Assembly (NCBI RefSeq): GCF_002895945.1
Contig: NZ_NPZB01000001.1
Location: forward strand, 1,007,501-1,071,500
Length of the DNA: 64,000 bases
Source of the DNA: Solilutibacter silvestris
Lineage (GTDB): Bacteria > Pseudomonadota > Gammaproteobacteria > Xanthomonadales > Xanthomonadaceae
Direction of reading: 5' to 3'
Shown here: piece after piece, positions 10,547 through 34,775 of the stretch
Numbering within the stretch: position 1 is the stretch's first letter
How the letters are laid out: the number at the start of each line of letters is the position of its first letter
Translations under genes and position numbers: made by a program
Notes under the pieces: model-generated
Databases searched by the model: none
What the model was told of the DNA's origin: nothing
Seen by the model: the letters and a program-made list of their open reading frames with translations, nothing else

Positions 10547-10593
10547 GGGCTTGAGGGCGGGGAAGTCCGCCCCCAGCTACAATGTCAGGTTCC

Positions 10594-10617: not shown

Positions 10618-10640
10618 CCGTTTTCGAGCCCGACGATTCC

Positions 10641-13373
<2,733 letters not shown>

Positions 13374-18891: not shown

Positions 18892-19239
18892 TCAGGCTGC
18901 GGTAGGCTCGCGCTTTGGTTTGGCGATCGGCGTGAGTGTGATGCGCAACTCGCATCCGACTGCGGCCGCATATTTGCGAAGCGTCGTGAGCGAGGGGGCG
19001 TGCTTGCGGCTCCCTGCAGTCGATTCCAGCCGTCCGACAGACGATTGCGCCACGCCCATGCGTTCAGCCACGTCGGCCTGTGTCATACCGGCGCGTTGGC
19101 GTGCGCGCAGCAGTTCTTCCAGCGCAACATACTCGTCTTCCAGGGCGACGAAAGCCTCCGCAAATACTGGATCCTTCATCCAACGTTTGCGAATGGCTTC
19201 CACATCGAACGGAACCGGGTTGTAACGATCATGGTCCAT
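18892..19239 (-). CDS. XRE-family antitoxin, HigA-like
   Basis: 115 residues. A helix-turn-helix of the XRE/Cro type occupies about residues 45-100 (RARQRAGMTQADVAERMGVA onward). The gene follows and overlaps the toxin gene by 11 bases, the toxin-first order of HigBA systems. Such antitoxins neutralise the partner RNase and repress their own promoter. The locus sits directly next to pilB at the edge of the accessory block. Family assignment is good; activity is unproven. Confidence 0.85.
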   Translation of the reverse strand: MDHDRYNPVPFDVEAIRKRWMKDPVFAEAFVALEDEYVALEELLRARQRAGMTQADVAERMGVAQSSVGRLESTAGSRKHAPSLTTLRKYAAAVGCELRITLTPIAKPKREPTAA

Positions 19240-19564
19240 GTTTCAACACCTCTTTCTGTCTGGCCATTGCAACGCCCAATTCCTGCTTGGGGGTCTGTTC
19301 GGTTTTCTTGATAAAACAGTGAAGAATGACGATGCGTTTGCCGACCACGGTGCAAAATAGCGCCCGCCCGATACCTTCACGTCCCTTCGCCCGAATTTCG
19401 AAAAGTCCGCCACCCATTGCGCGGGTGTGCGGCAAACCAAGATTCGGACCGTATCGCGCCATCATGTCCAAGATACGCAAATAATCAGCACGGACGCTCG
19501 ACGGCCAACCGGCAACGCCTCGTTCAACGCGGGCGCTGTAGTAGCTAAATGACCACGGCGGCAT
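19229..19564 (-). CDS. RelE/HigB-type toxin (Gp49-like)
   Basis: 111 residues from the ATG at 19564 (MPPWSFSYYS); a longer reading from 19687 would run into the divergent glycosyltransferase start and is unlikely. The pattern RADYLRILDMMARYGPNLGLPHTRAMGGGLFEIRAKGREGIGRALF, split here only for description, is the core of the phage-derived Gp49-like/HigB family of ribosome-dependent mRNA endonucleases. The ending FIKKTEQTPKQEL is typical too. The gene overlaps the XRE antitoxin downstream. Local base composition is more AT-rich than in the flanking pilus genes. Confidence 0.85.
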   Translation of the reverse strand: MPPWSFSYYSARVERGVAGWPSSVRADYLRILDMMARYGPNLGLPHTRAMGGGLFEIRAKGREGIGRALFCTVVGKRIVILHCFIKKTEQTPKQELGVAMARQKEVLKHGP

Positions 19565-19690
19565 TATATCATTCTTGTTATTGAAGATTGGCTTATCCAG
19601 CGTCGCCGAGGTGGAATCCCCAAGCCATCGGGAAATCCTGAATTCACCGTAGACTTGCACCATCGGCGCGAGCCATTGGGGGAACACTGC

Positions 19691-20554
19691 ATGCGGTTGT
19701 CGATCATCCTGCCGGCCAAGAACGAGGAAACTGGCCTTGCCAAGTCATTGCCGGCGCTACGGGCGCGCTGGCCGGAGGCCGAGGTGATCGTCGTGGACGA
19801 TGGCTCCACCGATCGAACCGCAGCGGTCTGTGGCGAGCATGGCGTGCAAGTCCTGTCGTCGCCGTATTCCATGGGGAACGGCGCTGCGATCAAGCGTGGC
19901 GCGCGGGCAGCCTCGGGCGACATCCTCGTCTTCATGGACGCGGATGGCCAGCATGATCCTGCGCATATCCAGTCGTTGCTCGAGCAGCTGGATGTAGGCT
20001 ACGACATGGTGGTGGGCGCGCGCGATGGCAGCGGCCAAGCCAATGCCGGGCGCGGATTGGCGAATGCTTTCTACAACCGGCTAGCGAGTTGGATGACTGG
20101 CCATCGCATCATGGATCTCACTTCGGGGTTCCGTGCTGTGCGCGCTGGCAAGTTCATGGAATTCCTGCACCTGCTGCCCAACGGATTCAGTTATCCAACC
20201 ACCAGCACCATGGCGTTCTTCCGCAGCGCCTATCCGGTGGCTTACGTGCCGATTCCGGTGGCGAAGCGCGTGGGCACGAGCAGCCACATCCGCCCGATCA
20301 AGGACGGCATCCGCTTCCTGCTGATCATCTTCAAGATCGCGACGCTGTATTCGCCGTTGAAGTTGTTTGCGCCGATTGCTGCCTGCTTCGGGTTTGCTGG
20401 TTTGGGTTGGTATGCGTGGACCTTCCACCAAAATGGGCGCTTCACCAACATGAGCATGCTGCTGTTGAGTGCGGCGGTGATTGTGTTTCTGATCGGCTTA
20501 GTGTCGGAGCAGATCACCAGCTTGACCTACCAGAAGGGCGATGGAGGCATCTAG
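19691..20554 (+). CDS. GT2 glycosyltransferase, polyprenyl-phosphate type with two C-terminal TMs
   Basis: 287 residues. The N-terminal GT-A domain has DDGSTD (36-41), MDADGQHD (about 82-89) and the GARDGSGQANAGR stretch. After about residue 215 come two hydrophobic segments (about 215-245 and 255-280), as in GtrB/DPM1-like enzymes. These charge undecaprenyl phosphate with one sugar on the cytoplasmic face, giving a donor for GT-C enzymes in the periplasm. It is the only plus-strand gene in the block and faces the sugar operon. A donor for the GT-C-like protein at 31275 is an attractive but unproven role. A GGGGG stretch 10 bases upstream may be the ribosome-binding site. Confidence 0.85.
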   Translation: MRLSIILPAKNEETGLAKSLPALRARWPEAEVIVVDDGSTDRTAAVCGEHGVQVLSSPYSMGNGAAIKRGARAASGDILVFMDADGQHDPAHIQSLLEQLDVGYDMVVGARDGSGQANAGRGLANAFYNRLASWMTGHRIMDLTSGFRAVRAGKFMEFLHLLPNGFSYPTTSTMAFFRSAYPVAYVPIPVAKRVGTSSHIRPIKDGIRFLLIIFKIATLYSPLKLFAPIAACFGFAGLGWYAWTFHQNGRFTNMSMLLLSAAVIVFLIGLVSEQITSLTYQKGDGGI

Positions 20555-20597: not shown

Positions 20598-21548
20598 TTA
20601 CTTCCGGTGCCGCAAGATCATCCGACCGAGTTGATACGCACCCCACACAAGGGCATCCGACAGTAAGATCACGAGTCGAAATCCAGCCAGCAGTGCAGCT
20701 GCACTCTTCAGCGATCCAGTGCCGCTGATCATGTCTCCGGCAACAACCTCAAATACTCCGATGCCTTGTGGGGCAAAAAAGGCAATGAACCCCATGCCCC
20801 ATGCGAACAGGTAGGTGGCGCCGGCCTCTAATGCAGAAACATGCACTGCTAGATCCGGAAACGAAGTCAAGAACATCACGAATGCAGTGGCGCCGATGCA
20901 CCATGAAACCGCCACGATGCCAGTGCAAATCAAGTAGTCGCGTGCATGAAAGCTGCCGCGTCCTGTTGTAAGGCGATAGTTGAGCAGCCAAGGAAGTATT
21001 GCTAGCCCGAGTATGCCGCTAGTGCCCGCAAGCGCGGCGGCCAACCCCCAGCCTGTCAGTCCGCGATACAACGCAACCAACGGACCTCCCAATGCGAATG
21101 CCACGCCAACGGCGAGCGCATTCTCCAACAATACGAATATCGCAATATCGCGTTTCCCGATACCGAGCCTGGAAAAGGCAACGGCTCTGCCGACTGTGTG
21201 CCATATCCCGCCGGGGATATAGCGTGCAGGCAGATTGGCGATGTGGATGGTGGCAAGCTGGCGATAGGAAAACCGACGGCCGCCTACTGCACGGAACACC
21301 ACGCTCGCGAATAGCGGTGCCAGCAGAGCCATCAACGACCAGAGGAGCACGGCAATCGGCAGTCGCCACGGGTTACCTCTGGCGAGTACTTCGCATAGGG
21401 ACTCTCGGCTCTCCCATACGAAGTAGAGGAGAAAGACAAGTGCAATTGGCGTGAACAGTAGTTTTGCGATGCGCAGCGCCTTGCGGGCAAGAGCGAGCGC
21501 AGGTGTTACACCGGACTTGGGTAGCTGTAGGGGAAGCTGGCTGTGCAT
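20598..21548 (-). CDS. LPG-synthase-TM/YbhN-like integral membrane protein
   Basis: 316 residues with about eight hydrophobic segments. The pattern IHIANLPARYIPGGIWHTVGR and the later GIGVFEVVAGDM match the UPF0104/lysylphosphatidylglycerol-synthase transmembrane family, whose members lack the aminoacyl-transferase domain here. Such proteins often accompany polysaccharide genes and have been proposed as lipid-linked sugar transporters. It is the last gene of the sugar operon; its start overlaps the glycosyltransferase stop by one base. A flippase role is inference. Confidence 0.75.
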   Translation of the reverse strand: MHSQLPLQLPKSGVTPALALARKALRIAKLLFTPIALVFLLYFVWESRESLCEVLARGNPWRLPIAVLLWSLMALLAPLFASVVFRAVGGRRFSYRQLATIHIANLPARYIPGGIWHTVGRAVAFSRLGIGKRDIAIFVLLENALAVGVAFALGGPLVALYRGLTGWGLAAALAGTSGILGLAILPWLLNYRLTTGRGSFHARDYLICTGIVAVSWCIGATAFVMFLTSFPDLAVHVSALEAGATYLFAWGMGFIAFFAPQGIGVFEVVAGDMISGTGSLKSAAALLAGFRLVILLSDALVWGAYQLGRMILRHRK

Positions 21549-22432
21549 CAGGCTTTTCGGCCCGCCAGATAGCGCACCAGGAACGCTGGTACCAGCGCCA
21601 TCAGCACCGCGATTTTCTCGCCGATACCAAGTTGGCTGCGCAGTACTGCGCGCGCCTGTTCCAGTGGCAACCGCAACAGGGGCAAGCTGCGATCTAGCCA
21701 GCTCTTGGCAAGGCCGAAATCCGAGCTCTTGTAACGCCGTATGCGATCCGCATGTGATTCACGTTTGCGCGGTTGGCGTCGCCACCACATGGCGTCTGCT
21801 GCGTGCAGGAAATCCCCCTTCAATGCCAGCTCGACAAGCACGATCTGGTCAGCTCCCACGCAGGCATGGATCTTGGGCAGCTCATGCAGGTAGCGGGTGC
21901 GAATCAGTCCGAGGATGGGGTGTGCATTGCCCCAAAACGCCATAAAAAATCGCAGCATCGCTTGCATGCCACGGGTGTCGTACCAGCCCGATTCCTTGTC
22001 CCAGGCGCGATCCTCTTCGTCGATCCAGCTGGCAGGACCGTAAGCCAGCGCTGAGGAGGGATGCCCCTCCAGCAACGTGACGCAGGTCGAGATTAGTCCC
22101 GGTGACCAGGCATCGTGCCCCGACGCCCACATGAAGTACTTCCCAGTGGCCTGCTCCAGCACATGGATTGAGTTGGCGGCGGATCCCACATTGTGCGGCC
22201 GTCGGTGGTAGCGGATCCAGCTGGAGCGTTGCGCATACTCCAAGCAGATTGCCTCTGTTTCGTCCGTGGAGCAGTTGTCCGAAATAATGATCTCGATGTT
22301 GGCGTAATCCTGAGCCAGCAGGCTATCCAGCGTCCTGCGCAGGAAGCGCGCTTCGTTGTATGCGAACAGCCCGATGGATACCAGCGGCAGATCTTGTTCA
22401 CCGGATCCATCAATGTCCGACTCAGTCGCCAT
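21548..22432 (-). CDS. GT2-family glycosyltransferase
   Basis: 294 residues. A GT-A fold starts near residue 16 (VSIGLFAYNEARFL), with SDNCSTDETE around 49-58 and the metal-binding-like stretch WASGHDAW near 105. The remainder is less conserved and ends in a hydrophobic segment (KIAVLMALVPAFLVRYLAG) that may touch the membrane. It probably adds a sugar made by this operon to an acceptor lipid or glycan. The start lies inside the 3' end of the CmcI-like gene (11-base overlap). Confidence 0.82.
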   Translation of the reverse strand: MATESDIDGSGEQDLPLVSIGLFAYNEARFLRRTLDSLLAQDYANIEIIISDNCSTDETEAICLEYAQRSSWIRYHRRPHNVGSAANSIHVLEQATGKYFMWASGHDAWSPGLISTCVTLLEGHPSSALAYGPASWIDEEDRAWDKESGWYDTRGMQAMLRFFMAFWGNAHPILGLIRTRYLHELPKIHACVGADQIVLVELALKGDFLHAADAMWWRRQPRKRESHADRIRRYKSSDFGLAKSWLDRSLPLLRLPLEQARAVLRSQLGIGEKIAVLMALVPAFLVRYLAGRKA

Positions 22433-23207
22433 CAGCGACGCGCCTCAGGTAACCGCCTGGCGCGACCGTGATCAGCAGCTTGGCCTCGATGTCCTCGTCC
22501 ACTTCGAAGTTCCGGTTGTGGGAAAGGAACTCACGCACGGCCGTCTTGGGGTTGTCACCTCGGCCCCATGGTCGGTCCTGGATGAGATTGTCCGGCATGT
22601 CCTCGATCAATGTGTCGTACACCACGCAATAACTGCCCGGTCCGACCAATGGTGCATAAGCCTCCAGCTCAGCGAGCACGTGGTCGTGGGTGTGGTTGGA
22701 GTCGAGAAGCACCAACACGCGTTTCCCGGCAGCGCGTTCCCGCACGCGCTGCACGACATCGGCGTCAATTGACGAGCCTTCGATCATCTCGATCCGCGTA
22801 GCCATTGGATGGGCCTCGATCGCCTCACGGTTGTGGCGGCGAATGTCTATGTCGATGCCCAGCACCTTGCGTTTTGGTGTGTGCGGGTCGAGAAGGGCGC
22901 CTGTCTCAGCCGCTTCGCAGTAATCCAGAAGTGCCAGTAGCGAGGCGCTGAGCATGAGTGAGCCGCCGTGGGCGATGCCGGTTTCAATGATCAGATCTGG
23001 CCGTACGTCCCATATCAGCTCCTGCAAAGCTGCCATGTCTTGGGGGAATTGGATAACCGGCCGACCGAGCCAGCGAAAATTGTAGGCGTACTTATGCTGG
23101 GTAATCTCGCGCAACCAGATACGCGAAAGCGCCTGCACGTCGATGTCCCGCTTCAGGCCGGCAATGTTGCCGGCAACTTCAGTCTGAAATCGCTCGGTTT
23201 CGTTCAT
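22422..23207 (-). CDS. CmcI/rhamnosyl O-methyltransferase-like protein
   Basis: 261 residues from the ATG at 23207; longer starts would lie deeper inside the upstream WbqC gene. The SAM-binding pattern IETGIAHGGSLMLSASLLAL (about 75-94), LGIDIDIR and LLDSNHTHDHVLAEL fits the cephalosporin-hydroxylase/CmcI family. That family includes sugar O-methyltransferases of surface polysaccharides. In this operon O-methylation of a deoxysugar is the most likely role. The start overlaps the WbqC reading frame by 29 bases. Confidence 0.8.
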   Translation of the reverse strand: MNETERFQTEVAGNIAGLKRDIDVQALSRIWLREITQHKYAYNFRWLGRPVIQFPQDMAALQELIWDVRPDLIIETGIAHGGSLMLSASLLALLDYCEAAETGALLDPHTPKRKVLGIDIDIRRHNREAIEAHPMATRIEMIEGSSIDADVVQRVRERAAGKRVLVLLDSNHTHDHVLAELEAYAPLVGPGSYCVVYDTLIEDMPDNLIQDRPWGRGDNPKTAVREFLSHNRNFEVDEDIEAKLLITVAPGGYLRRVADGD

Positions 23208-23919
23208 GGGTGGGAAAGTCCTTCCAGGGAGTGATGCGCGGGCAGATGAATTTTTTGCCATGAGAGCCGGTGTTCGCAATTAGGTCCAGTGCGGATACGA
23301 ATGGGGTGAACTCGCCGTGCAGCTGCGGATAGGGCGCCTTCGTGTAGTCCATATACTCCACAGCGATACCGGTGCGATCGAACGCCGCGTGGTCGAGGTA
23401 GCGGGCAGCACCGTGACCGGTAATGTAGCGGGTACCGCCGAGCGAGCGCACGATCTTGAGTACCCGCGTGCTGCCGCTGTCACCGATTCCGAGTTCGTCG
23501 ATATCGACGAAGCGGCAATCGCGGTCGAGGTCGAAATATTCACACAGTGCCAGCAGGGACGCGGTAGCGAGTGCACCGATGTCGGCGTAATCATGCGCGT
23601 ACACACCGCGCACCAAATCAAGCATTGCATCGCGGTACGGTGCATCTGTGTAGGCATCCGCTAGCAACGCCAAGTGCTCCTCGCGCCAAGGGCGCTTGTC
23701 GCTAGGGCGCACTTGGTCGATGCGTTGTCCCAAGTGCAGGTCGGCAAGTGGCACCGTCATCCAGCGCGACCCGTTCGCGGTCTTGACCTGAACACGATTG
23801 ACGAAGCTCCCCTTGGAGAACTGCACATCCGTGTAGTTCACATAAACGTCTGCCAGGCGCACCTGCTCCAGCAAGCCGACCCATGGGAACAGCATTGGCT
23901 GTGAGATCACGACTTTCAT
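23179..23919 (-). CDS. WbqC-family protein
   Basis: 246 residues. It begins VVISQPMLFPWVGLLEQVRLAD, with WMTVPL and ITGHGAARYLD further on, the pattern of the WbqC-like family found in O-antigen and antibiotic-sugar clusters. The biochemical role of the family is poorly defined; a transferase acting on amino sugars has been suggested. The start overlaps the GNAT stop by four bases (ATGA), so it is part of the coupled operon. Confidence 0.82.
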   Translation of the reverse strand: MKVVISQPMLFPWVGLLEQVRLADVYVNYTDVQFSKGSFVNRVQVKTANGSRWMTVPLADLHLGQRIDQVRPSDKRPWREEHLALLADAYTDAPYRDAMLDLVRGVYAHDYADIGALATASLLALCEYFDLDRDCRFVDIDELGIGDSGSTRVLKIVRSLGGTRYITGHGAARYLDHAAFDRTGIAVEYMDYTKAPYPQLHGEFTPFVSALDLIANTGSHGKKFICPRITPWKDFPTHERNRAISD

Positions 23920-24470
23920 GTTGGCGAAATCGGTCTGATTGCCGCCCTACGCAACAATCGCTCCATCAGGATGATATCGATATATGCATCTCGTTCGCGG
24001 TAGTGGCCAGCAAGGCGCCCAACCTCGAGGTAACCCTCGCGGCGATAGAAGGCGATCGCGCGTGCGTTGTCCGCACGTACCCGCAAGCCGATCTTGCGCA
24101 GACCGTATTGATCACCCAAGTGTGTATGAAGAAGATCGAGTGCCGCGGTGGCGATGCCGTGGCCTTGTGCAAGGGGGGACAGGCAGATGCCGAGCTCGCA
24201 GTGACCTTGGAACACGTCCATGGCCGCGGCCTGCACATAGCCGAGCATTGAGTCGTCGGCGCGGCTAGCGATGACGTACAGCAGAAGATCGGGCTGAGCC
24301 GCGCGCTCTACTAGCCATTCGCGTACGCGTTCAATGGGGTTCGGCCGGGCGCGCGCCATCAGCTTTGCCTGTAGATCCACGTCACTGCGCAGTATCGACA
24401 ATACCGGCAAGTCAGCTTCGCGCCAGCCACGCAGTCGCACCGTAACGCCCTCAAGCGCCGGGCCGATCAT
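23916..24470 (-). CDS. GNAT-family N-acetyltransferase
   Basis: 184 residues. The GNAT acetyl-CoA-binding motif A is seen as ELGICLSPLAQGHGIATAAL (about 92-111), followed by LRKIGLRVRADNARAIAFYRREGY (described in two parts: beta strand, then the NxxAxxFYxxxGF-like motif B). It resembles RimJ-like or sugar N-acetyltransferases. With a DegT aminotransferase in the same operon, acetylation of a newly made sugar amine is the likely role. It is coupled by ATGA overlaps on both sides. Confidence 0.82.
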   Translation of the reverse strand: MIGPALEGVTVRLRGWREADLPVLSILRSDVDLQAKLMARARPNPIERVREWLVERAAQPDLLLYVIASRADDSMLGYVQAAAMDVFQGHCELGICLSPLAQGHGIATAALDLLHTHLGDQYGLRKIGLRVRADNARAIAFYRREGYLEVGRLAGHYRERDAYIDIILMERLLRRAAIRPISPT

Positions 24471-25645
24471 AGGAAGAAAAATTTCAGGTCAGGGCGAGCC
24501 AATGCCGGGATGTCCGCGACGATGTGGCGTGCGTGCGCCGGATTAAGGCCGATCAATACCGTGTTTAGATCGGCAGGCAACTGCGCGGGTGGCAATACCG
24601 GTTTTTGGTTGAAGAATTTACCGTGCAGGAACGGGTTGTTGTCCAGATGGCATGCGACGCGTTCCGGATCGGCCAGGCTTATGCGCAGAAACGCCCCATA
24701 GAATCCTGCACCGTAGATCGCCACTTGCTTCCGTTCTGGCAGGGCGTGCTCGAATTCACGCACGCGCCTGGAAGCGCTACCCCAGAAGTTGGCGAGGCCG
24801 GAAAGCTGACTGCAGACACGTTCGATTCCAGCGTAGTCGGTAGACATCCTGATGACTGTGTCGCTTATCGGTTTCTGTGCCACCAGCACGAGTGCACCGC
24901 GATGTGCCGTGTCATCGATGCGCTCGGCGACCAGTCCCGCATCCGCAAGAAGGCGCTCGAGCGATGACACAGTGAAGTGGTTGCAGTGATCGACAACCAC
25001 GAAGTCGGCGACATTCGTCATCACATTCGGCACTACTGCGTAGAAGCGACCACCCGGGCGCATTAGAGAGGCGATATGACGCAGCGTGTCGGCAACCGCC
25101 GGGATGTGCTCAAGTGAGAAGAACGAGGTAACTAGGTCGAAGCGCCCCATCCAATTCGCGGGAGTGTACTTGATCGCCCAGTTCCCACGCTGGGAAAACT
25201 TGTCCCAGAATGGTTCGTAACGCGCGCTGACGTCATACAGGTGCGGCACGATGCCGGGCTCTTGTGCGCATAACGTGCGAATGGTTGAACCCTTGGCGCA
25301 TCCGTAGTCGAGCAACAGCATCGGAGATGCGATATCGCCCAGCATGTCGCGAAGCACTCGGACCTGGTGCGTCGTGCGGTATGTCGGCGCACCGTCACGC
25401 ATCTCGTAGATCTGGTCTTCTTCCTCGCTATCGACCAAGATGTCGTATTCGTTGTCGTAGAAGGCGTCGATACCTTCGATTGCACGCGTCTGCAGATGCC
25501 CGCAGCTCGTGCATGCGAACACCTCGGTGGTGGAGGAGTGCAGGCGGCACAACGATGTCAGCGTCTGGCCGTCCGCAGAGCGGTACAGCGCCTCGCCAAG
25601 TGGCGCGCGGCATACGTTACAAATGTTGGCTGCGGATGTCGTCAT
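24467..25645 (-). CDS. SAM-dependent methyltransferase with zinc-type N-terminus
   Basis: 392 residues. The N-terminus has four paired cysteines (CNVC and CTSC), a putative zinc domain. A class I SAM fold follows with LLDYGCAKGSTIRTL (about 108-122) and the post-I region SFFSLEHIPAVADTL. The C-terminal 110 residues carry a second Rossmann-like motif, VAIYGAGFYGAF. This architecture resembles sugar C-methyltransferases and related two-domain methyltransferases. A second methyltransferase of the same layout occurs upstream at 27614-28837. The start at 25645 makes a TGATG junction with the upstream gene. Confidence 0.8.
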   Translation of the reverse strand: MTTSAANICNVCRAPLGEALYRSADGQTLTSLCRLHSSTTEVFACTSCGHLQTRAIEGIDAFYDNEYDILVDSEEEDQIYEMRDGAPTYRTTHQVRVLRDMLGDIASPMLLLDYGCAKGSTIRTLCAQEPGIVPHLYDVSARYEPFWDKFSQRGNWAIKYTPANWMGRFDLVTSFFSLEHIPAVADTLRHIASLMRPGGRFYAVVPNVMTNVADFVVVDHCNHFTVSSLERLLADAGLVAERIDDTAHRGALVLVAQKPISDTVIRMSTDYAGIERVCSQLSGLANFWGSASRRVREFEHALPERKQVAIYGAGFYGAFLRISLADPERVACHLDNNPFLHGKFFNQKPVLPPAQLPADLNTVLIGLNPAHARHIVADIPALARPDLKFFFL

Positions 25646-26490
25646 CAATCGGCGCACAGTTCGGGGTGTATTCGGCGAAAATCCACGCCGGAGGCGAACG
25701 AGCCTTTCCAGCCATGCGCGCGACCGGTCGGATCATTGAAATTGAAGTAACGGAACTGCATGGACCAGCGCGGGCGCGTACTTTGGTTGTAACCGGACGC
25801 ATGTAGCGTAAGGAAGTCGATCAACACCAAGTCGCCAGGCATGGTGAGTGGCGCGGCTTGAGGATAGCGCCCGACGACTTGCGCTTCATTCTCCAGTCGC
25901 AATGCGTATGCGCCGCTGCGTTCACTGCTTGGTTCCGGTTGGGTCAGTACCGGGATCAGCCCGCCAGAGTGGGAGGTAGGACAGAAGCGCACCGGACCGA
26001 ATTCTTCCGTCACCATGCGCAATGGGCTCCAGAACACCAGCCCGTCGAGACTGCGCAGTTGTGCCGGATACTCCTGGTGCCACTCGGCGCGAAAACGATC
26101 TTCTGCCGGATTGTCGATCCGGATGCCGTAGCCGCCAGAGGCGATCGCAGGTACCGAATCGGGGCGTAGTTGCGTGAAGATCTGCTCATGGCGCGGGTCG
26201 GCGAGCAGTCGCATAAAGGCCGGAATCTGCTTGACGGCATCATAAACCTCACCGCCCCACGACCGATCGGTACCGATCAGCATTTCGTACCCGTCGTCGA
26301 AATCATCCGCGCTAAACTGCGTGCGGTTATCGCTGAGACCGTGGCGCAGCATTACCTGGCCGATCACCTGGTGGATGCCGCGCTGGATTGGCAGCAATTG
26401 TATGGCCATGTCATAGAAGCCGCGCACGACCAATACGCCGTCGCGCCAGAACGACTCGATCTGCTCGGCTGAAAGGGGCACTGAACTCAT
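25645..26490 (-). CDS. PhyH-like Fe(II)/2-oxoglutarate dioxygenase
   Basis: 281 residues. The phytanoyl-CoA dioxygenase fold is suggested by the metal motif WHQEY (H-x-E, a variant of H-x-D) near residue 138, the distal histidine in LTLHASGYN and the 2-oxoglutarate-binding arginine in RPRWSMQFRYF. Such enzymes hydroxylate, or occasionally epimerise or desaturate, small molecules. Placed between a DegT aminotransferase and a methyltransferase, it probably modifies the sugar or an acyl substituent. The ATG overlaps the DegT stop. Confidence 0.8.
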   Translation of the reverse strand: MSSVPLSAEQIESFWRDGVLVVRGFYDMAIQLLPIQRGIHQVIGQVMLRHGLSDNRTQFSADDFDDGYEMLIGTDRSWGGEVYDAVKQIPAFMRLLADPRHEQIFTQLRPDSVPAIASGGYGIRIDNPAEDRFRAEWHQEYPAQLRSLDGLVFWSPLRMVTEEFGPVRFCPTSHSGGLIPVLTQPEPSSERSGAYALRLENEAQVVGRYPQAAPLTMPGDLVLIDFLTLHASGYNQSTRPRWSMQFRYFNFNDPTGRAHGWKGSFASGVDFRRIHPELCAD

Positions 26491-27617
26491 CGCGGCCTCC
26501 TACCAAGGTGATCGACTACATGACGGGCAACGCGTGCGATCTCCGCATCTGTGAGGTCATGGTAGCTGGGAAGGTTGAGTGCACGTGCCGACAACGAAAG
26601 ACTTTCGGTGTGTTGCGGGCGCGACTCGAATGCAGGAAGGCTGGACAACGGCCAGAAAAACACCCGTCCATCGATGTTGTCTGCCATGAATGCGGCGAGC
26701 AATTCTTCCCGGTTGAATGGTATTCCCCCATCAACAACGAAGGTCGGCATCCAGTAGCCGTTGACCGTACCGACAGGTTCCGGATTCATGCGCAGCGGCA
26801 ATCCTGAAAGCGCAGCGCGGTAGCTCTCGAACACTCGGCGTTTGCCGGCGACTAGTTCATCAATGCGCTCCATCTGGGCGCATCCGATCGCCGCCTGAAC
26901 GTTCGACATCTTGTACTTGAAGCCAATGCGTTCTGGCCAAAATTGCCGGTTTTCGCCCCTTGCGCGGCCGTGGTTCGACAGGGTGAGGACGCGTGCGTAC
27001 AAGGCATCGTCATTGGTGACGAAGATGCCACCTTCACCGGTGGTTATGGTCTTGGTGCCGTGGAACGAGAATGCGCCGAATGCGCCCATCGATCCTGCGC
27101 GCCGACCATGCCAGACGGATCCGATGGCTTCGGCGGCGTCTTCGATAAGGTGCAGTCCGTGTTTCTCGGCAATGGCGGAGAGCGCATCCATGTCACAGAG
27201 ATTGCCGTAGAGGTGGACGGCGAGGATCGCCTTGGTCCGTGGCGTGATAGCGGCTTCGACGGCGGATGGGTCGAGGCACCAAGTGTCTCGCGACACGTCC
27301 ACCAGCACTGGTTTTGCGCCAAGGTGGACGATGGGGGCGGCGGAGGCGATCCAGTTGATGTCGGCGATAATTACCTCGTCGCCGGGACCGATACCTAGAC
27401 CAGCCATACCCATGTGCAGGGCGCCGGTGGCGCTGGAGGTGGCGATGGCATGGCGCACACCGAGATGTTGCGCGAACAATTGTTCAAAGCGTTCGATGTA
27501 TTCGTAGCAGCGCTCGCCCCAGCCGTTGGAGACGGCGTCGTTGGCGTAGCGTATTTCTAGGCCGGTGATCGACGGCTTGGTGTAGTAGATGCGACTGTTC
27601 GGACCTTCGGAGTTCAT
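26487..27617 (-). CDS. DegT/DnrJ/EryC1 PLP-dependent sugar aminotransferase
   Basis: 376 residues. The fold-type I sugar aminotransferase family is clear. It has the TSSATGALHMGMAGLGIGPGD start (two parts), DAAEAIGS for the cofactor Asp, and the PLP lysine in SFHGTKTITTGEGG. These enzymes put an amino group on a keto-sugar nucleotide, here most likely CDP-linked because rfbF and rfbG lie upstream. The chosen ATG overlaps the upstream stop (ATGA); a 31-residue longer reading would run into the methyltransferase. The lysine is present, so it is not a PLP-dehydratase of the RfbH (ColD) type. Confidence 0.92.
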   Translation of the reverse strand: MNSEGPNSRIYYTKPSITGLEIRYANDAVSNGWGERCYEYIERFEQLFAQHLGVRHAIATSSATGALHMGMAGLGIGPGDEVIIADINWIASAAPIVHLGAKPVLVDVSRDTWCLDPSAVEAAITPRTKAILAVHLYGNLCDMDALSAIAEKHGLHLIEDAAEAIGSVWHGRRAGSMGAFGAFSFHGTKTITTGEGGIFVTNDDALYARVLTLSNHGRARGENRQFWPERIGFKYKMSNVQAAIGCAQMERIDELVAGKRRVFESYRAALSGLPLRMNPEPVGTVNGYWMPTFVVDGGIPFNREELLAAFMADNIDGRVFFWPLSSLPAFESRPQHTESLSLSARALNLPSYHDLTDAEIARVARHVVDHLGRRPR

Positions 27618-28837
27618 GACACTTCCAGTTTCGGCACTGCAGTGACGAATTTCCCGCGCCATTCGCGAATGTATGCAAGTTGCATGGTGATTTCGTCGCG
27701 TAGATTCCAAGGCAGGACTACCACGTAGTCGGGACGGGTTTCGCGTATCCGTGTTTCGGTGACGACCGGGATGCGCGATCCGGGCAAGTAGCGACCTTGC
27801 TTGTGTGGTGATGCATCCACGACATAGGTCAGCAGATCCGGGCGCACGCCGGCGTAATTGAGCAGTGTGTTGCCCTTCGCCGCCGCGCCGTAGCCGATCA
27901 CCGATTTCCCGTTGCGCTTGCAGTCCAACAGAAAGGAGAGGAAGTCGTTCTTGATTTCGTTGGCTGTACGCTGGAAGTCTTGGTAGTAGGACATGTCCAG
28001 CATGCCAGAGGCGCGCTCCCGGGCCAGCAAAGTGCCGACTGCGGTGGTCTCATGGTTCGCGGCCCCTGCGTGGCAAGCCCATATGCGCAGTGAGCCGCCA
28101 TGCGTAGGAAGTTCCTCTACGTCCCAGATACGCACGCCGTGCATGGCGAGGACGCGCTGTACCGTGTGGAACGAGAAATACGAGAAATGCTCGTGATAGA
28201 CGGTGTCGAACTGACGTTTCGTCATCAATTGCATTAAGTGCGGGAACTCGATCGTGATGTTGCCTTCGGGCGCAAGCATTGTGGCGAGGCCGGCAACGAA
28301 ATCGTTGAGGTTGGGGACATGGGCCAGCACGTTGTTGGCGATAATGAGGTCCGCGTTGCCCCGGGATGCCGTGAATTCCTGTGCGGAATGTTGGCCGAAG
28401 AACTGTTCCAGTGTCTCGATACTGCGCTCGCGCGCTACTGCTGCCGTACTGGCGGTGGGTTCGATTCCGATGCAAGGGATGCCACGTGCCTTGACGTATT
28501 GCAACAGGTAGCCGTCGTTGGAGGCGATCTCCACCACCAGGCTATGTGGGGTGATGTCTAGCCGCTCGACCGCTTGCGCCACGTAGCGTTCGGCATGGTC
28601 GAGCCAACTGCGCGAATAGGAAGAGAAGTACACGTAGTCACTGGAGAACAGCGCATCGTGTTTTTGCACTTCGTCCACTTGCACGAGATGACATTGGTTG
28701 CAGACGTGGAGTTTGAGGGGAAACCACGCCTCGGGGGCATTGAGTTCGTCGACGCGCAGGAAAGCGTTGGAAGGGGGTGCGCTACCCAAGTCCAGGAACA
28801 CGTCGTGCAATGGGGAGTCGCAGAAGCGGCACTTCAT
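27614..28837 (-). CDS. NDP-sugar C-methyltransferase family protein
   Basis: 407 residues. It has the three-part layout of TylC3/NovU-like sugar 3-C-methyltransferases: an N-terminal Cys4 zinc domain (CRFC and CNQC), a SAM domain with VVEIASNDGYLLQYV (about 99-113), and the YHEHFSYFS motif, then a C-terminal domain with VIGYGAAAKGNTLLNYAG. The family methylates carbon 3 of 4-keto sugar nucleotides. Position beside rfbG/rfbC-type genes supports a CDP-4-keto-6-deoxyhexose substrate. Start and stop are both ATGA-coupled. Confidence 0.88.
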   Translation of the reverse strand: MKCRFCDSPLHDVFLDLGSAPPSNAFLRVDELNAPEAWFPLKLHVCNQCHLVQVDEVQKHDALFSSDYVYFSSYSRSWLDHAERYVAQAVERLDITPHSLVVEIASNDGYLLQYVKARGIPCIGIEPTASTAAVARERSIETLEQFFGQHSAQEFTASRGNADLIIANNVLAHVPNLNDFVAGLATMLAPEGNITIEFPHLMQLMTKRQFDTVYHEHFSYFSFHTVQRVLAMHGVRIWDVEELPTHGGSLRIWACHAGAANHETTAVGTLLARERASGMLDMSYYQDFQRTANEIKNDFLSFLLDCKRNGKSVIGYGAAAKGNTLLNYAGVRPDLLTYVVDASPHKQGRYLPGSRIPVVTETRIRETRPDYVVVLPWNLRDEITMQLAYIREWRGKFVTAVPKLEVS

Positions 28838-29385
28838 GGCCGCACTCCCGCGAAGCCGTCATCGATTGGTGTATAGCCACGATCGCGCGTAGATAGCCCG
28901 GTTGCTGGAAGCGGCCAGGCGATCGACAAGCGCGGATCGTTATGGCAGATGCCGGCTTCGCACGCCGGTGTCCACGGTGCAGTGTGCATGTACAACAGGT
29001 CGACTTCGTCTGAGAGTGCTTGGAACCCGTGGGCGAAACCCTCGGGGATGAAGACGGCACGGCCATTGTCTTCACTGAGTTCCACAGCATGCCAATGGAG
29101 GAACGTGGGCGATTCTGCGCGCAAGTCTACAGCCACGTCGAACGCGCGTCCGCGTAAGCAGCGAATCAGCTTGGCTTCCGCGGCGGGCGGCGTCTGGTAA
29201 TGCAAGCCGCGGAGGGTGCCTCGACCCCGTGTTTCAGAGAGATTGATCTGGGTGAAGTGCAGGTCAGGGCGAATGGCGGCAAGTTCCTTTTCGCAGAACA
29301 GTCGTGTGAAGCGTCCGCGAGCATCGCCGATCGGGGTGTGCTGGATTTCGAACAGACCCGCAAGCGCGGTGCGTTGGTATTTCAC
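28834..29385 (-). CDS. rfbC: RmlC/RfbC-type sugar-nucleotide 3- or 3,5-epimerase
   Basis: 183 residues from a GTG that overlaps the rfbG stop as GTGA; a GTG three codons upstream (29394) is less likely. The cupin fold is shown by GDARGRF, LRGLHYQ (catalytic His) and IPEGFAHGF, and the partner Asp in the NDPRLSIAWP stretch is present. The usual catalytic Tyr in the T-x-Y-Y-x-P motif is not seen: the sequence reads TAPWTP, with Trp at that place. That may restrict it to one epimerisation or change its role. It precedes the C-methyltransferase. Confidence 0.88.
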   Translation of the reverse strand: MKYQRTALAGLFEIQHTPIGDARGRFTRLFCEKELAAIRPDLHFTQINLSETRGRGTLRGLHYQTPPAAEAKLIRCLRGRAFDVAVDLRAESPTFLHWHAVELSEDNGRAVFIPEGFAHGFQALSDEVDLLYMHTAPWTPACEAGICHNDPRLSIAWPLPATGLSTRDRGYTPIDDGFAGVRP

Positions 29386-30467
29386 GACCCCCACTCCAGA
29401 CCGAGTTTGCAGGCGTCATCGATATAAGCAGCTAAATCGTTCGCACTATTCACGTTGCCGAAATCGCGGAAATCGTGGTACCACGCGGCAGTCCGGGCCA
29501 ACGCGACCTCAATGTCCCAAACCGGTCGCCATGCCAGTAGTTGATGAGCTTTACCGACATTGAGTCGCAGGGTGGCGGCTTCGTGCGGATGCGTGCCGCC
29601 ATCGGGCTGGATGCTGATGGTGTTCGATTGCGTTGCCAGTCCTTCGATCAGTGACTGGACGCTGATTTCCCCGGCAGGACCGGGCCCGAAATTCCAGGCA
29701 CCGGCAAGGCTGCCGTCGTTCCAGAGGCACTGCGCCAGGCGCAGGTAGCCGGAGAGTGGCTCCAGCACGTGTTGCCAGGGACGGATGGCGAACGGGCTCC
29801 GTATCTGCAATGGCTGTCCGGAGCTGATGGCGCGCTCCAGATCGGGAACCAATCGGTCCTCGGCCCAGTCGCCGCCACCGATCACGTTGCCGGCACGCGC
29901 CGTGGCAACGTGCACGTCGGAATGGGTCGTGCCGAAGAAACTCTTGCGGTAACAGTCCGACACCAGTTCCGCGCAGGCCTTCGAGCTGCTGTAAGGATCG
30001 TGCCCACCCAATGGATCGGTTTCGCGGTAGCTTTCGTGGCTGGCGTGCTCGGCGTAGACTTTGTCAGTGGTCGCGTTGATCAGTACGCGCACCGACGGAC
30101 ACGTGCGAGCGGCTTCGAACAAATTGACCAGGCCCATCACGTTCGAAGCGAATGTCGTCGCGGGATCACGGTAGCTACGACGGACCAGCGGTTGTGCTGC
30201 CAGGTGAAAGACGATCTCCGGGTTGTATGCATCCAGTACGCCGCGAACGGCCTGCGCATCTCGCAAGTCCACCCGGTAGTCAGTTACATCCCCAAGTGCA
30301 AGGAGCGACCAATGCGAGGGGTGTGTATCCGGATCGAGGGCCAGTCCTGCAACCTGCGCGCCCAGTGCACGTAACCACAGCACAAGCCACGAGCCTTTGA
30401 AGCCCGTGTGGCCCGTCACCAGCACACGCCGATCAGCGTAAATGCCGTTGAACAGGTTCAGGGCCAT
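29382..30467 (-). CDS. rfbG: RfbG, CDP-glucose 4,6-dehydratase
   Basis: 361 residues. It converts CDP-glucose to CDP-4-keto-6-deoxyglucose with bound NAD. The SDR motif GHTGFKGSW is at 19-27, where the FKGSW ending is typical of the CDP-glucose enzyme. TTDKVY and YSSSK (about 133 and 155) carry the catalytic Thr, Asp, Lys, Tyr and Lys. The ATG at 30467 is chosen over a GTG three codons upstream. It overlaps the rfbF stop by ten bases, so the two steps are coupled. Confidence 0.95.
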
Positions 30468-31231
30468 ACCTTCCACGGGGCCCTTCCGGATTGCCAGAGT
30501 TCCTCCAGCTTCAACTTGTCGCGCAAGGTGTCCATGGGTTGCCAGAATCCGCGATGCACGTATGCAGACAGCTGTTCATCTTTGGCCAAGCGCTCCAATG
30601 GCTCGCGTTCCCAGATCATCGCGTCGCTCTCGATGTAGTCGAGCGCTCCCGGCTCCAGGATGAAGTACCCGCCATTGATCCAGGTGCCATCACCCGCAGG
30701 CTTTTCCTCGAAACGTGTGATGCGATGATCTTTGATATCTATGGCGCCAAATCGCCCCGGTGGTTGCGCGGCACACATTGTCGCCAGCGTGCCTTTTTCC
30801 CGATGGAAGGCGAGTTCCGCATGGATGTTGATGTCGGCCAAGCCATCGCCGTACGTAAAGAAGAATGAATCACCATCGAGATAATCGGCAACGCGCTTGA
30901 GGCGGCCACCGGTCTGTGTTTCGTTGCCGGTGTCCACCAAGGTGACGCGCCAAGGCTCGGCGTGCTTTTGGTGCACCTCCAATTTATTCGTGGACATGTC
31001 GAAGGTGACGTCGGACATGTGCAGAAAATAGTTGGCGAAATACTCCTTGATCACGTAACCCTTGTAACCAAGGCAGATGATGAAATCATTGATGCCGTAA
31101 TGCGAATAGATCTTGAGGATGTGCCAGAGCACTGGCATGCCGCCGATTTCGATCATCGGTTTCGGGCGCACTACGGTTTCTTCACTGAGTCGTGTGCCTA
31201 GGCCGCCGGCAAGTATGACCGCTTTCATCAT
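30458..31231 (-). CDS. rfbF: RfbF, glucose-1-phosphate cytidylyltransferase
   Basis: 257 residues, matching Salmonella RfbF in length. It makes CDP-glucose from CTP and glucose-1-phosphate. The nucleotidyltransferase signature [11 protein letters not shown] is at 9-19, followed by [10 protein letters not shown], the CDP-glucose-specific [20 protein letters not shown] region (two parts), [10 protein letters not shown] with the metal Asp, and [12 protein letters not shown]. Either of two adjacent ATGs can start it, with AAGGA ten bases upstream. It is the first enzyme of the sugar pathway and lies 43 bases after the GT-C-like gene. Confidence 0.96.
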
Positions 31232-31274
31232 GGATGAATCCTTGGATGGGGGTACGCGCGTTAGCAGGAACATA

Positions 31275-33128
31275 TCAATGCGCTTGCGGGCTACCTCTTT
31301 GGTCGTCCATTTTCTCCAGCTTGGTTACCCACTCAATCCTTCCCGCTGTTTTCAGCCGGGCAATAATTTCGCGGGATCCAGGGCCGTGCGGCGAGAAAAG
31401 TTGTATGGATCTCTCGAAGTAGGGATAGGCTCGTTCTGGCTGGCGGGTTTGGGTCAGGATGAAGGTGCCAATCGAGGCCATTTCATTGGGGCCAAGCGGC
31501 ATTCTCCTGGAAATGATATCAAGCGCTCCGAGAACCCCGTCGTCGTTCAATGCCACACCTTGGCTGACATTGTTCATCAGAACCGAAGCAGTTCGCATAT
31601 TTTCAGGCCCCAAATTGACCCATTGCAGTCGGTTTAGCAAAATATCCCAATCCGCTTGCGTTGCGTTGCCTCGCATCGATTTGAAGATAATGAGATTGGT
31701 CAGGCTGGTGACAGAATAGGGGGCAGCCTCAGCGCCCTTGCCGCAGATATCAATTGCCTTGCTGAGGTAAGGGTTTCCTGCGGCCTTTCCTCCGCCTAAT
31801 TGATAGAAATATAGGCATAACGAGTTCCATGCACGAGCCGAACGTGGAGCGAATTCCGTGCTTCTCTGTGCAAGTCCCAGTGGGCTATCCCAGATGCGTG
31901 CGCGTACCGAAGTGGCGGCACTCAATAGCGCCAGCAAGAGAATGCATGTGCCAATGGCAAGTGGAGTTCGAACGCGCAGACGCTGAGTGATCAGCATAAC
32001 CAGATCGCCCACGGCCAGAACAACACCGATCAACGGGAAGTGGTTGCGGTGTTCGAACGCCAGTTCAAGATTAGCTATATTGCTGGTGAGAAATTGACCA
32101 GAGAAAAATATGAAAATACCAAACGCGAATAGCGACCGTTGTATGCGTAAGCGCCAGGCCAACACTAGAAGTGCTGCCACGACCAGGAGCGAGGGGAGAG
32201 TGCTTGCAGGGTGCAGCAGGCTACGCGATGGCTCGATCCAGTCGTAGTAGAAAGGCATGTGCTGCGGCAAAGGAAGAATGATCTCCCATAAATACATGCA
32301 CAGCACTCGCCCTTGGGTCAGCAACCGCTCGATGGTGGAGAAATCCCGTCCAGGGTAAGGTCCTCGAGACCAGTAATGCGGTATGGCGACTAACAGGAAG
32401 AGCGCGGCACCTCCTGCGGTCATGAATGCATAACCCGTGCGCAGCCTGCGGGAAAGCTCAGGGTTTTCAGCACGGAAACGTAGAACTGTCAATTCCAGCG
32501 CCAGAGTATAGACAGGCAAGAGAATGGCATCTTCCTTACAGCCGAAGGCCAATGCCCAGAACAAACTGGATAACATCCAGCCAGTGCGGCCCGACCGGCC
32601 TTCGATTTGGGTTTGCCTTGCCTTGAGGTAGGTCAGCAATGCCAACACCAAGAACAAGGTAGCCATCGTCTGCATACGCTGCACGACATACAGCACCGAT
32701 GAAACTTGCAGAGGGTGTAACGCCCATGCAAGTGTTAGCACTACAGCGATCAATCGAGCGTGCTTTGGAGCGGTATTGGCTGCCAGTAGCAAATTGCTGA
32801 AAAACCACGCCAGCACGAACGTTGTCACGGCATGGATGGCAATGTTTGTAGTTTTGAATGCGACGGGATCAAGCCCGCCACTGCGCCAATAATCCAGCGC
32901 AAAACTCAGGGTCGGTAGAATGCGTGTGGCGCCACCTGGCTGAAGCCCAAACAATACTTGGAGCAAAGAGTTGGCGCTTAGTGATGCAAGCTGGATTCCT
33001 GGGTTATTGATGATGTTCGGCTCATCATCAAATACAAAGCCGCCATTAAGGCCTAAAAAGAATGGCAGACTCGCCAGTACTGCGCAGATCGCGCTGGCAA
33101 GCAAAAACCGACGGTTAGAGAAGGTCAT
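31275..33128 (-). CDS. Polytopic GT-C-like (TMTC-type) membrane protein, candidate pilin/surface glycosyltransferase
   Basis: 617 residues from the chosen ATG; a start at 33200 would add 24 residues. About ten to twelve hydrophobic segments fill residues 8-440. The first outer loop has FDDE (33-36), as expected for the catalytic acidic pair of GT-C transferases, and [19 protein letters not shown] resembles the TMTC/DUF1736 family. Residues 450-617 look soluble and helical, possibly TPR-like. It lies between a pilin gene and rfbF. A role in transferring a lipid-linked sugar to pilin is inference from position and topology. Base composition is clearly lower in G+C; in one 60-base line (32041-32100) I counted 27 G or C. 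Confidence 0.6.
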
Positions 33129-33139
33129 GAGAGGGGGGC

Positions 33140-33155
33140 GATCAGTCGACTGGTC
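33140..33155 (-). promoter_or_regulatory. Palindrome upstream of the GT-C-like gene
   Basis: The perfect 10-base palindrome CAGTCGACTG, extended by further pairing to 16 bases with one G-T wobble, lies 11 bases before the likely start of the membrane protein gene. It could be an operator or a hairpin hindering translation. No known site is recognised. Confidence 0.25.
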
Positions 33156-33236
33156 GATTATCGGCGATCGCCATGTTTTTGATAGATCCCCCGGCTGCAT
33201 ATTGCGGCGCGGCGCCCGGATCGCGAGTGAAGTGGA

Positions 33237-33569
33237 TCAGGGCGCTACGGTGCAATTGCCGTTCTGCATGGTGCAGGTTATCTGCTTGTTGCCCGGCGCT
33301 TGGGGCGTGCCAGTAATCGGGGTGCTGAAGTTGGTGGCGGTATCCGTAGCGCTGCAGGCCTTTGTGGGTGGAGCGGGAGGGGGGCTGCCGTTATACATCG
33401 TGGCCAGAGAGAAGTTGGCGTAATTCTTCATTTCCATCAGACAGGCGTTGTTGGCTGATTTGATTCGGTAGTTGTTATAGGCTGGCAGTGCGATGGCCGC
33501 CAGGATAGCGATGATGGCCACCACGATCATCAGTTCGATCAGCGTGAAGCCGCGTTCGGTCTTGGCCAT
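33237..33569 (-). CDS. Type IV pilin, divergent third copy
   Basis: 110 residues with start MAKTERG; an ATG two codons upstream (33575) is also possible, with AGGA nearby. The prepilin signal is [25 protein letters not shown] with Glu at position 5 of the mature protein (described in parts). After the first 40 residues it differs from the two other pilins: a Pro-rich loop ([13 protein letters not shown]) and a C-terminal disulfide candidate between TC and NC. A strong sigma-54 promoter lies upstream. It is followed by the GT-C-like gene on the same strand, which suggests a dedicated partner. Confidence 0.92.
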
Positions 33570-33610
33570 GGCCATATTTCCTGATAATGATTGCCCCATA
33601 ACTTGACCTA

Positions 33611-33625
33611 GCAAGTTTCGGGCCA
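33611..33625 (-). promoter_or_regulatory. Sigma-54 promoter of the divergent pilin gene
   Basis: On the minus strand TGGCCCGAAACTTGC matches TGGCACG-N4-TTGC with one mismatch and has the required GG-N10-GC spacing. It is 42 bases upstream of the pilin start at 33569. RpoN with the nearby PilR would be the expected activator. Confidence 0.8.
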
Positions 33626-33637
33626 ACGCTCCAAGAT

Positions 33638-33687: not shown

Positions 33688-34032
33688 TTAATGCGGGGCG
33701 CCGCATGTTGCCGTAGCAGAATCGCAGTAAGTGCTCTTACTACCCGGCTTCTGCGGGGAGAACGTAACAGATTGGTTCGTGCTCACCTGGGCGGCGGTCA
33801 GCGTCATGGTGCCGTTGCAAGCCTTGCCCGGAGAAGCCGGGACGGGGGTCAGGTTCGACATCACCGCAGCCACGGCCGAGTTCATGTAGGCCTTGGCTTC
33901 GGCCTGGCAAGCGCCTTCGGCTGACTTGATGCGGTAATTGTTGTAAGCCGGCAGCGCGATGGCGGCCAGGATGGCGATGATCGCAACGACGATCATCAGT
34001 TCGATCAGGGTAAAGCCTTGCTGCTTCTTCAT
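33688..34032 (-). CDS. pilA: Type IV major pilin, duplicate copy A
   Basis: 114 residues. The prepilin leader MKKQQG precedes [18 protein letters not shown] with the conserved Glu5 and a hydrophobic helix. The mature globular part is short and ends with a two-Cys loop (C...C in the last 12 residues). The protein is the same as copy B (34261-34605) except Tyr for His and Ser for Thr near the C-terminus. A GGGGA ribosome-binding site sits eight bases before the ATG. I find only a weak sigma-54-like element upstream, overlapping the terminator at 34213. Confidence 0.95.
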
Positions 34033-34053
34033 TTGGATAATCCCCATGGAGTG
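33731..34053 (-). repeat. 323-bp exact direct repeat, copy A
   Basis: This stretch is identical, as far as I can read it, to 34304-34626, with an offset of 573 bases. It covers most of the pilin coding sequence plus 21 bases upstream of the ATG, including the ribosome-binding site. Both flanks diverge. This points to a very recent duplication or to ongoing gene conversion. Confidence 0.92.
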
Positions 34054-34212
34054 GATGTTTCTAGCAGCACATGCTCTGAACCACAGGAGAGGGCGGGTCC
34101 ATGGTCCAGCCGCAGGCATGTGTTTGACGAGTCAAGCAGGCGCAATACTGATCGTCAATGGCTGTAGCGCGGGCGGCGGTGCGTTTCAGACAAACGGTTG
34201 CCTTGGGCAATA

Positions 34213-34260: not shown

Positions 34261-34605
34261 TCAGTGCGGGGCACCGCAAGTAGCGGTAGCGGTATCACAG
34301 TGGGTGCTCTTACTACCCGGCTTCTGCGGGGAGAACGTAACAGATTGGTTCGTGCTCACCTGGGCGGCGGTCAGCGTCATGGTGCCGTTGCAAGCCTTGC
34401 CCGGAGAAGCCGGGACGGGGGTCAGGTTCGACATCACCGCAGCCACGGCCGAGTTCATGTAGGCCTTGGCTTCGGCCTGGCAAGCGCCTTCGGCTGACTT
34501 GATGCGGTAATTGTTGTAAGCCGGCAGCGCGATGGCGGCCAGGATGGCGATGATCGCAACGACGATCATCAGTTCGATCAGGGTAAAGCCTTGCTGCTTC
34601 TTCAT
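34261..34605 (-). CDS. pilA: Type IV major pilin, duplicate copy B
   Basis: 114 residues, with leader MKKQQG and the same N-terminal helix as copy A; only two residues differ near the C-terminus (His and Thr here). It has the best promoter of the three pilins: a GG-N10-GC sigma-54 site 105 bases upstream and paired GTGAC/GTCAC motifs further up. It lies next to pilR. This is the most likely main pilin gene and the parental copy. Confidence 0.95.
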
Positions 34606-34626
34606 TTGGATAATCCCCATGGAGTG
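34304..34626 (-). repeat. 323-bp exact direct repeat, copy B
   Basis: Partner of 33731-34053. Sequence upstream of 34626 contains the good sigma-54 promoter, whereas the sequence upstream of copy A does not. The duplication therefore carried the gene and ribosome-binding site but not the promoter. Confidence 0.92.
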
Positions 34627-34709
34627 ATTGTTCATGTGCCACGTGCGGCCGGGCCGGGGGATCCAAGTCCTTTGGAGCCTGACGACAGGACACGTGCCGG
34701 AAGAGTGAA

Positions 34710-34724
34710 GCAGGGGATGTGCCA
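34710..34724 (-). promoter_or_regulatory. Sigma-54 promoter of pilin copy B
   Basis: On the minus strand TGGCACATCCCCTGC has a perfect TGGCAC -24 element and a TGC -12 element with the correct ten bases between GG and GC. The transcript would start near 34698, giving a leader of about 93 bases. Confidence 0.82.
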
Positions 34725-34775
34725 AACGTCAATCCCCGCTAACTCATTGATGAATCTCGGTTGGTAGTGCGAAGA

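Follow-up and report, generated by a model that had tools for sequence, protein, structure and literature searches.

The window analysed here, a 64,000-nt stretch (G000:C1:1007501-1071500, forward strand) of the 2.85-Mb genome of Solilutibacter silvestris (Lysobacteraceae), carries a sugar gene set that sits between pilR with three pilin genes on one side and pilB/pilC on the other, and which we read as a probable type IV pilin O-glycosylation locus. In the direction of minus-strand transcription the order is pilR, pilA1, pilA2, pilA3, a gene for a GT-C-type membrane glycosyltransferase (GT-C), rfbF, rfbG, an rmlC-like gene, a sugar 3-C-methyltransferase gene (CMT), degT, phyH, a second two-domain methyltransferase gene (MT2), a GNAT gene, wbqC, cmcI, a GT2-type glycosyltransferase gene (GT2a) and a gene for an LPG_synthase_TM-type membrane protein (LPG-TM; Table 1). 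Beyond LPG-TM follow a second GT2-type gene on the plus strand (GT2b), a toxin-antitoxin pair, pilB and pilC.

The original prediction for this DNA had placed the sugar genes on one strand, and all genes that it named were indeed open reading frames (ORFs) of the minus strand, with Pfam and NCBIfam matches confirming the stated families. Its description of the junctions as mostly ATGA-type overlaps was accurate in part: neighbouring cassette genes overlap by 1-30 nt at most junctions, but the exact 4-nt type is found at five of them (CMT/RmlC, DegT/CMT, PhyH/DegT, GNAT/MT2 and WbqC/GNAT). As the outline of a complete system its interval was too narrow, leaving out an essential part, the DPM1-like GT2b, and it had not worked out how GT-C would act as the transferase. 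Better start positions were assigned to DegT (27617), CmcI (23207), MT2 (25645), RfbF (31231) and GT-C (33128), the annotated GT-C ORF extending to 33200 and its homologues beginning near 33128. The G+C content at third codon positions (GC3) is 0.83-0.89 in pilR, pilB and pilC but lower in the cassette (0.61-0.72) and in the GT-C gene (0.58).

Table 1. Predicted features of the pil locus and other elements in the window.
Feature	Coordinates	Strand	Evidence
pilA1, type IV pilin, probable acceptor	34261..34725	-	PF07963; GFTLIELM motif
pilA2, type IV pilin	33688..34119	-	PF07963; tandem duplicate of pilA1
pilA3, divergent pilin, directly before GT-C gene	33237..33626	-	PF07963
GT-C transferase with C-terminal TPR domain (TMTC-like), predicted pilin O-glycosyltransferase, 641 aa	31275..33128	-	Alignments, AlphaFold2, Foldseek, motifs
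RfbF, glucose-1-phosphate cytidylyltransferase	30458..31231	-	TIGR02623, 459.5 bits (cut-off 300)
RfbG, CDP-glucose 4,6-dehydratase	29382..30467	-	TIGR02622, 439.9 bits (cut-off 278)
RmlC-like 3/5-epimerase	28834..29394	-	PF00908/TIGR01221, just over cut-off
CMT, sugar 3-C-methyltransferase, KijD1/TcaB9 type	27614..28837	-	PF08421 + PF08484
DegT sugar 4-aminotransferase, perosamine-synthase-like	26487..27617	-	PF01041, 398.6 bits
PhyH-type Fe/2-oxoglutarate dioxygenase, predicted acyl hydroxylase	25645..26490	-	PF05721, 3.8e-9; H138-x-E...H230 triad
MT2, second two-domain methyltransferase	24467..25645	-	PF13489
GNAT N-acyltransferase	23916..24470	-	PF13302/PF00583
WbqC-like protein, probably N-acyl assembly	23179..23919	-	PF08889, 200 bits
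CmcI/rhamnosyl-O-methyltransferase family, predicted sugar 2-O-methyltransferase	22422..23207	-	PF04989, 309.7 bits
GT2a, predicted cytosolic transferase of CDP-sugar	21548..22432	-	PF00535
LPG-TM, LPG_synthase_TM-type membrane protein, candidate flippase	20598..21548	-	PF03706, 26.4 bits (Pfam gathering score 33.4)
GT2b, DPM1/AglJ-like polyprenyl-phosphate glycosyltransferase	19691..20554	+	PF00535; TIGR04182, 115 bits, below cut-off
Helix-turn-helix protein + Gp49/HigB-type toxin	18892-19687	-	PF05973, 1.1e-23
Cobalamin riboswitch	62801-63040	+	92.7 bits

Linkage to pilins was assessed in 249 genomes of the family, 17 of the genus and 369 of the class Gammaproteobacteria, a CMT relative being counted as close at E below 1e-100. 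Close relatives of RfbF occur in 21 and of CMT in 13 of the family genomes, and 12 of these 13 carry CMT at the pil locus. The RfbF/CMT cassette adjoins the GT-C gene in 11 genomes (in G201 split over short contigs) and in one lies at a contig edge, running into GT2b-pilB-pilC; in the last (G054) it is located elsewhere. The conserved frame of the family reads pilR - pilA(s) - GT-C - variable cassette - GT2b - pilB - pilC, and a pilin pair ahead of the GT-C gene recurs in relatives; in some members of the genus pilR-pilA-pilB is present and both GT-C and GT2b are missing. RfbF and CMT were absent from every other sampled member of the genus, so the CDP cassette looks like a recent arrival in this genome.

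All genes recur in the same order in locus L088 (G239, from a genus of Thermomonas metagenome-assembled genomes, MAGs) with 72-88% identity, except that GT-C shares only 52% and the pilins only 50-57%. Moreover, locus L166, from another gammaproteobacterial family, holds the complete set at a pil locus with 29-62% identity, in the order PilR-pilA-GT-C-GT2b-RfbF-RfbG-CMT-RmlC-PhyH-MT2-GNAT-WbqC-CmcI-DegT-(LPG-TM, GT2a reversed)-PilB-PilC. Such recurrence of one gene order, across unrelated genera and into a second family, shows that the set is not a product of chance. Close relatives of PhyH were found in only three of the family genomes, each at a pil locus together with the core. CMT is present in 35 of the class genomes and MT2 in only two, both times at a pil locus with the core.

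Homologues of the GT-C protein occur in 120 of the 249 family genomes and, where enough of the locus is available, almost always have pilins as neighbours. Its AlphaFold2 model reached a predicted local distance difference test (pLDDT) score of 91.8; Foldseek matched the C-terminal tail to TPR proteins and the membrane part to PIG-U and to STT3 of the yeast oligosaccharyltransferase (probability 1.00, with a modest TM-score of 0.35). An acidic motif was found in the first periplasmic loop, and residues D58 D59, K222 E223, D320 and R385 were invariant in 61 of 61 homologues, one of which matched PMT_2. In order, these residues correspond to motifs M1 (DD), M4 (KE), M5 (D) and M7 (R) of the TMTC proteins (PMC7801869, Table 4). 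Since DUF1736 (PF08409) was not detected in the window protein and is absent from the list of 25 families for the 61 homologues (E up to 10), TMTC-like denotes its mode of working and not family membership. Two or three tandem GT-C genes stand behind the pilins in L046, L048, L050, L051, L055, L056, L057 and L095, which suggests several transferases or acceptor sites.

An orthologue of GT2b was detected in exactly seven of the 17 genus genomes, those with a GT-C gene; the seven GT-C-free genomes tested have none. GT2b directly follows GT-C in the same orientation in Marinobacter, Gilvimarinus, Roseateles and L166. This co-occurrence and adjacency make it most likely that GT-C and GT2b work together as a pair, whatever the sugar cassette.

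On the pilin side, pilA1 and pilA2 are near-identical over a 300-nt direct repeat (33692-33991 and 34265-34564, 97% identity), which is a recent tandem pilin gene duplication. The gap between pilA3 and GT-C gave an RNA fold z-score of -2.2, and its minus strand holds nothing that resembles a terminator followed by a T tail; a pilA terminator as in Pseudomonas was thus not demonstrated.

The sugar-core enzymes could be assigned with differing precision. RfbF and RfbG clear their NCBIfam equivalog cut-offs by wide margins, and RfbG is the sole TIGR02622 protein above cut-off in the genome. The RmlC-like enzyme keeps the catalytic His and has Trp at the position of the usual catalytic Tyr; the same exchange characterizes the RmlC-like enzymes of Lysobacteraceae pil loci (window, L083, L088-L093, L096, L098 and L099), L095 excepted, and relatives in other loci mostly keep Tyr. 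The best solved relatives of CMT are KijD1 (5t64, E 1.6e-75) and TcaB9 (3ndi), and its active-site motif Y-x-E-H is kept in every aligned homologue. DegT is closest to the perosamine synthases 3dr7 and 3bn1, which are C4 aminotransferases, and retains the pyridoxal phosphate (PLP)-lysine motif (SFHGTKTITTGEGG). As the original prediction had stated for the interval, an RfbH-type 3-dehydrase is missing; a search of the whole genome yielded nothing above cut-off, and with the PLP lysine kept in DegT the route to CDP-3,6-dideoxyhexoses was rejected.

Within the reach of their contigs, sister cassettes all keep RfbF, RfbG, RmlC, CMT and CmcI, the last of which is present in each pil-linked cassette whose end was covered, and they vary in the steps after DegT. 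The PhyH-MT2-GNAT-WbqC block is present in the window, L088, L091 and L166; WbqC always accompanies the other three in the loci compared, and MT2 was found only beside the 3-C-methyl core. At the corresponding place a PglD/NeuD-like acetyltransferase occurs in L096 and L098 and, outside pil loci, in L139 and L149. In L093 an ATP-grasp enzyme (9924-10961) takes the place of the acyltransferase, suggesting that the same sugar there carries an amino acid in amide linkage. L099 lacks DegT and has an SDR (reductase) and another methyltransferase instead. Such exchanges fit a pathway in which DegT provides an amine at C4 and acylation follows. In L098, a Thermomonas MAG, the PglD-like acetyltransferase gene (9997-10650) is split by a frameshift, either an assembly error or decay. 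Comparison of WbqC and MT2 with solved structures gave no usable relative, WbqC relatives were not found in viral contigs, and a single-sequence structure prediction of WbqC was unusable (pLDDT 35).

GT2a and LPG-TM are always paired and never occur with Wzx: among pil-linked cassettes seen whole, seven have the pair and five have Wzx, the absence of Wzx from L166 being judged from its ORF list. The naive chance of this exclusion is 1/792, uncorrected for relatedness. As the pair and Wzx replace one another, LPG-TM is a candidate flippase, and the pattern suggests that it does the flipping in place of Wzx. The window cassette holds no Wzx, Wzy or ABC export gene.

We infer the following pathway from these families. 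RfbF and RfbG would provide CDP-4-keto-6-deoxyglucose, on which the RmlC-like and KijD1-like enzymes would carry out epimerisation and C-methylation at C3, the 3-hydroxyl staying in place, before DegT would aminate C4. PhyH, MT2, GNAT and WbqC would make and attach a hydroxylated, probably methylated N-acyl group, and CmcI would add an O-methyl group, probably at O2. The predicted product is a CDP-4-acylamido-4,6-dideoxy-3-C-methyl-2-O-methylhexose. N-acylkansosamine of the Mycobacterium kansasii lipooligosaccharide (LOS) is a 4-acylamido, 4,6-dideoxy, 3-C-methyl, 2-O-methyl sugar, and the window sugar is predicted to share this decoration pattern, although kansosamine of M. kansasii is carried by a glycolipid and the window sugar is predicted on a protein. 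Four function names that fit the predicted route appear among the LOS genes specific to M. kansasii (PMC4403928, Table 1): glucose-1-phosphate cytidylyltransferase, epimerase/dehydratase, rhamnose epimerase and methyltransferase. Altogether, we consider it probable, at roughly 60%, that the locus is dedicated to type IV pilin O-glycosylation and that its plug-in cassette supplies a kansosamine-like sugar. The original prediction had proposed both pilin glycosylation and a CDP-linked, 3-C-methylated, aminated, acylated and O-methylated deoxysugar; the linkage in 12 of 13 family genomes and the entire set at the L166 pil locus support both well.

Several observations weigh against this reading. 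The Trp in place of Tyr leaves the epimerisation uncertain, which may be single or altered, and the stereochemistry therefore cannot be assumed. The GT-C protein matches no Pfam GT-C family, and its resemblance to STT3 is modest. The PhyH assignment is weak, with an H-x-E motif and distant solved relatives, and the PF03706 score of LPG-TM, being under the gathering score, is weak by itself. The likeness to M. kansasii is one of function names, a lead and not a test of homology, with the genes between MKAN27450 and MKAN27475 outside the comparison. Finally, an operon mostly remote from pilins, which the original prediction had named as contrary evidence, is not what the family shows, but outside the family the RfbF-RfbG-RmlC-CMT(-CmcI) core lies in non-pilin stretches at 19 of 21 CMT loci inspected. 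The two exceptions, L147 and L166, are pil loci; the rest show neither pilin nor PilB in the 6-20 kb inspected, and one of them, L139, resembles an O-antigen locus, having Wzx and a UDP-sugar dehydrogenase. As the core is mostly found in such places, it is a general surface-sugar module taken up by the pilin frame, and the route is not pilin-specific.

This distribution is also what speaks for the explanation that the sugar is destined for O-antigen or exopolysaccharide and came to the pil locus by an accident of insertion, and the low GC3 of the cassette suggests that its insertion was recent. We regard this explanation as improbable: accidental insertion fits poorly with pil linkage in 12 of 13 family genomes and with the full set of L166, which lies at a pil locus outside the family, the cassette lies between a pilin-linked GT-C and a GT2b that co-occur even without it, and it brings no Wzx, Wzy or ABC exporter of its own. 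Transfer by a WaaL/PglL/TfpO-type oligosaccharyltransferase encoded elsewhere, with another role for GT-C, appears very improbable. Two Wzy_C (PF04932) proteins score above cut-off in the genome, but neither is near the pilins, and GT-C stands beside pilins in nearly all relatives with its catalytic residues invariant. At the window locus itself a WaaL/PglL-type transferase was rejected, the GT-C protein having no PF04932 match and all such matches lying elsewhere.

Alternatively, locus and acceptor could be as proposed and the glycan another one, either because GT-C moves only the sugar made by GT2b and GT2a adds the CDP-sugar otherwise, or because the sugar is D-configured, unhydroxylated or differently acylated. 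Since GT2b and GT-C persist whichever cassette accompanies them, the sugar that they handle may be another than the CDP-derived one; the Trp of the RmlC-like enzyme and the unassigned WbqC step point the same way. However, GT2a is of the soluble GT2 type and never parts from LPG-TM; this fits a glycan that is extended first and flipped afterwards, and we consider this alternative unlikely. Beyond the window, the proposed pilin glycosylation locus may exemplify a wider arrangement, in which a kansosamine-like, CDP-derived branched amino (or related 3-C-methyl) sugar would coat the type IV pili of Lysobacteraceae and of at least two other gammaproteobacterial families. A new TMTC-like GT-C class would put it on, served by exchangeable cassettes that lie between pilA and pilB, with an LPG_synthase_TM flippase replacing Wzx. 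This generalisation is tentative, and we rate it somewhat below even odds.

Parts of the proposed system resemble known ones. KijD1 and TcaB9 share full-length homology and the Y-x-E-H motif with the window CMT. They act on dTDP-3-amino sugars of antibiotics, whereas the window route is CDP-linked and has no 3-amino step. RfbF and RfbG are common to the CDP-abequose, tyvelose and ascarylose routes (RfbF-RfbG-RfbH), from which the window differs in the missing RfbH and in C-methylation and C4 amination replacing 3-deoxygenation. CsbB-YfhO and GtlA-GtlB of lipoteichoic acid modification likewise combine a polyprenyl-phosphate-charging GT2 with an outside-acting GT-C, but the acceptor is teichoic acid and the sugars are simple (PMC5836110). 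TMTC1-4 O-mannosyltransferases have in common with the window GT-C a DD in lumenal loop 1, KE, D(W) and an E-R loop in this order, a TPR tail and a DPM1-type donor synthase (PMC7801869); the window protein differs in being bacterial and pilin-linked, in lacking a DUF1736 match and the M3 aspartate, and in its sugar. Another such system is that of TfpW, the GT-C arabinosyltransferase of Pseudomonas aeruginosa group IV pili, whose gene also adjoins pilA and which O-glycosylates pilin; by the description in PMC11841053, which cites Kus 2008, it uses D-arabinofuranose and has no CDP-sugar cassette, and a TMTC-like TPR tail is not reported there. For pilin glycosylation in Xanthomonas, Stenotrophomonas, Thermomonas, Luteimonas and Xylella no report was found among the papers listed.

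Two further elements of the window are listed in Table 1. A helix-turn-helix protein and a Gp49/HigB-type toxin are encoded between GT2b and pilB, and relatives of either gene were absent from the related pil loci compared. An Rfam scan of the window gave no match besides a distant cobalamin riboswitch.

To our knowledge, the biosynthesis of a kansosamine-like sugar is undescribed, and the locus, if correctly interpreted, would offer a genetically clean route to such a sugar together with testable roles for WbqC and LPG_synthase_TM proteins. It would also define a new TMTC-like class of pilin glycosyltransferases and make pilin glycosylation a modular locus whose sugar cassettes are swapped between genera, like those of O-antigen loci. 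Because pilus glycosylation shields P. aeruginosa from pilus phages (as cited in PMC11841053), exchangeable pilin sugars are a plausible site of an arms race.

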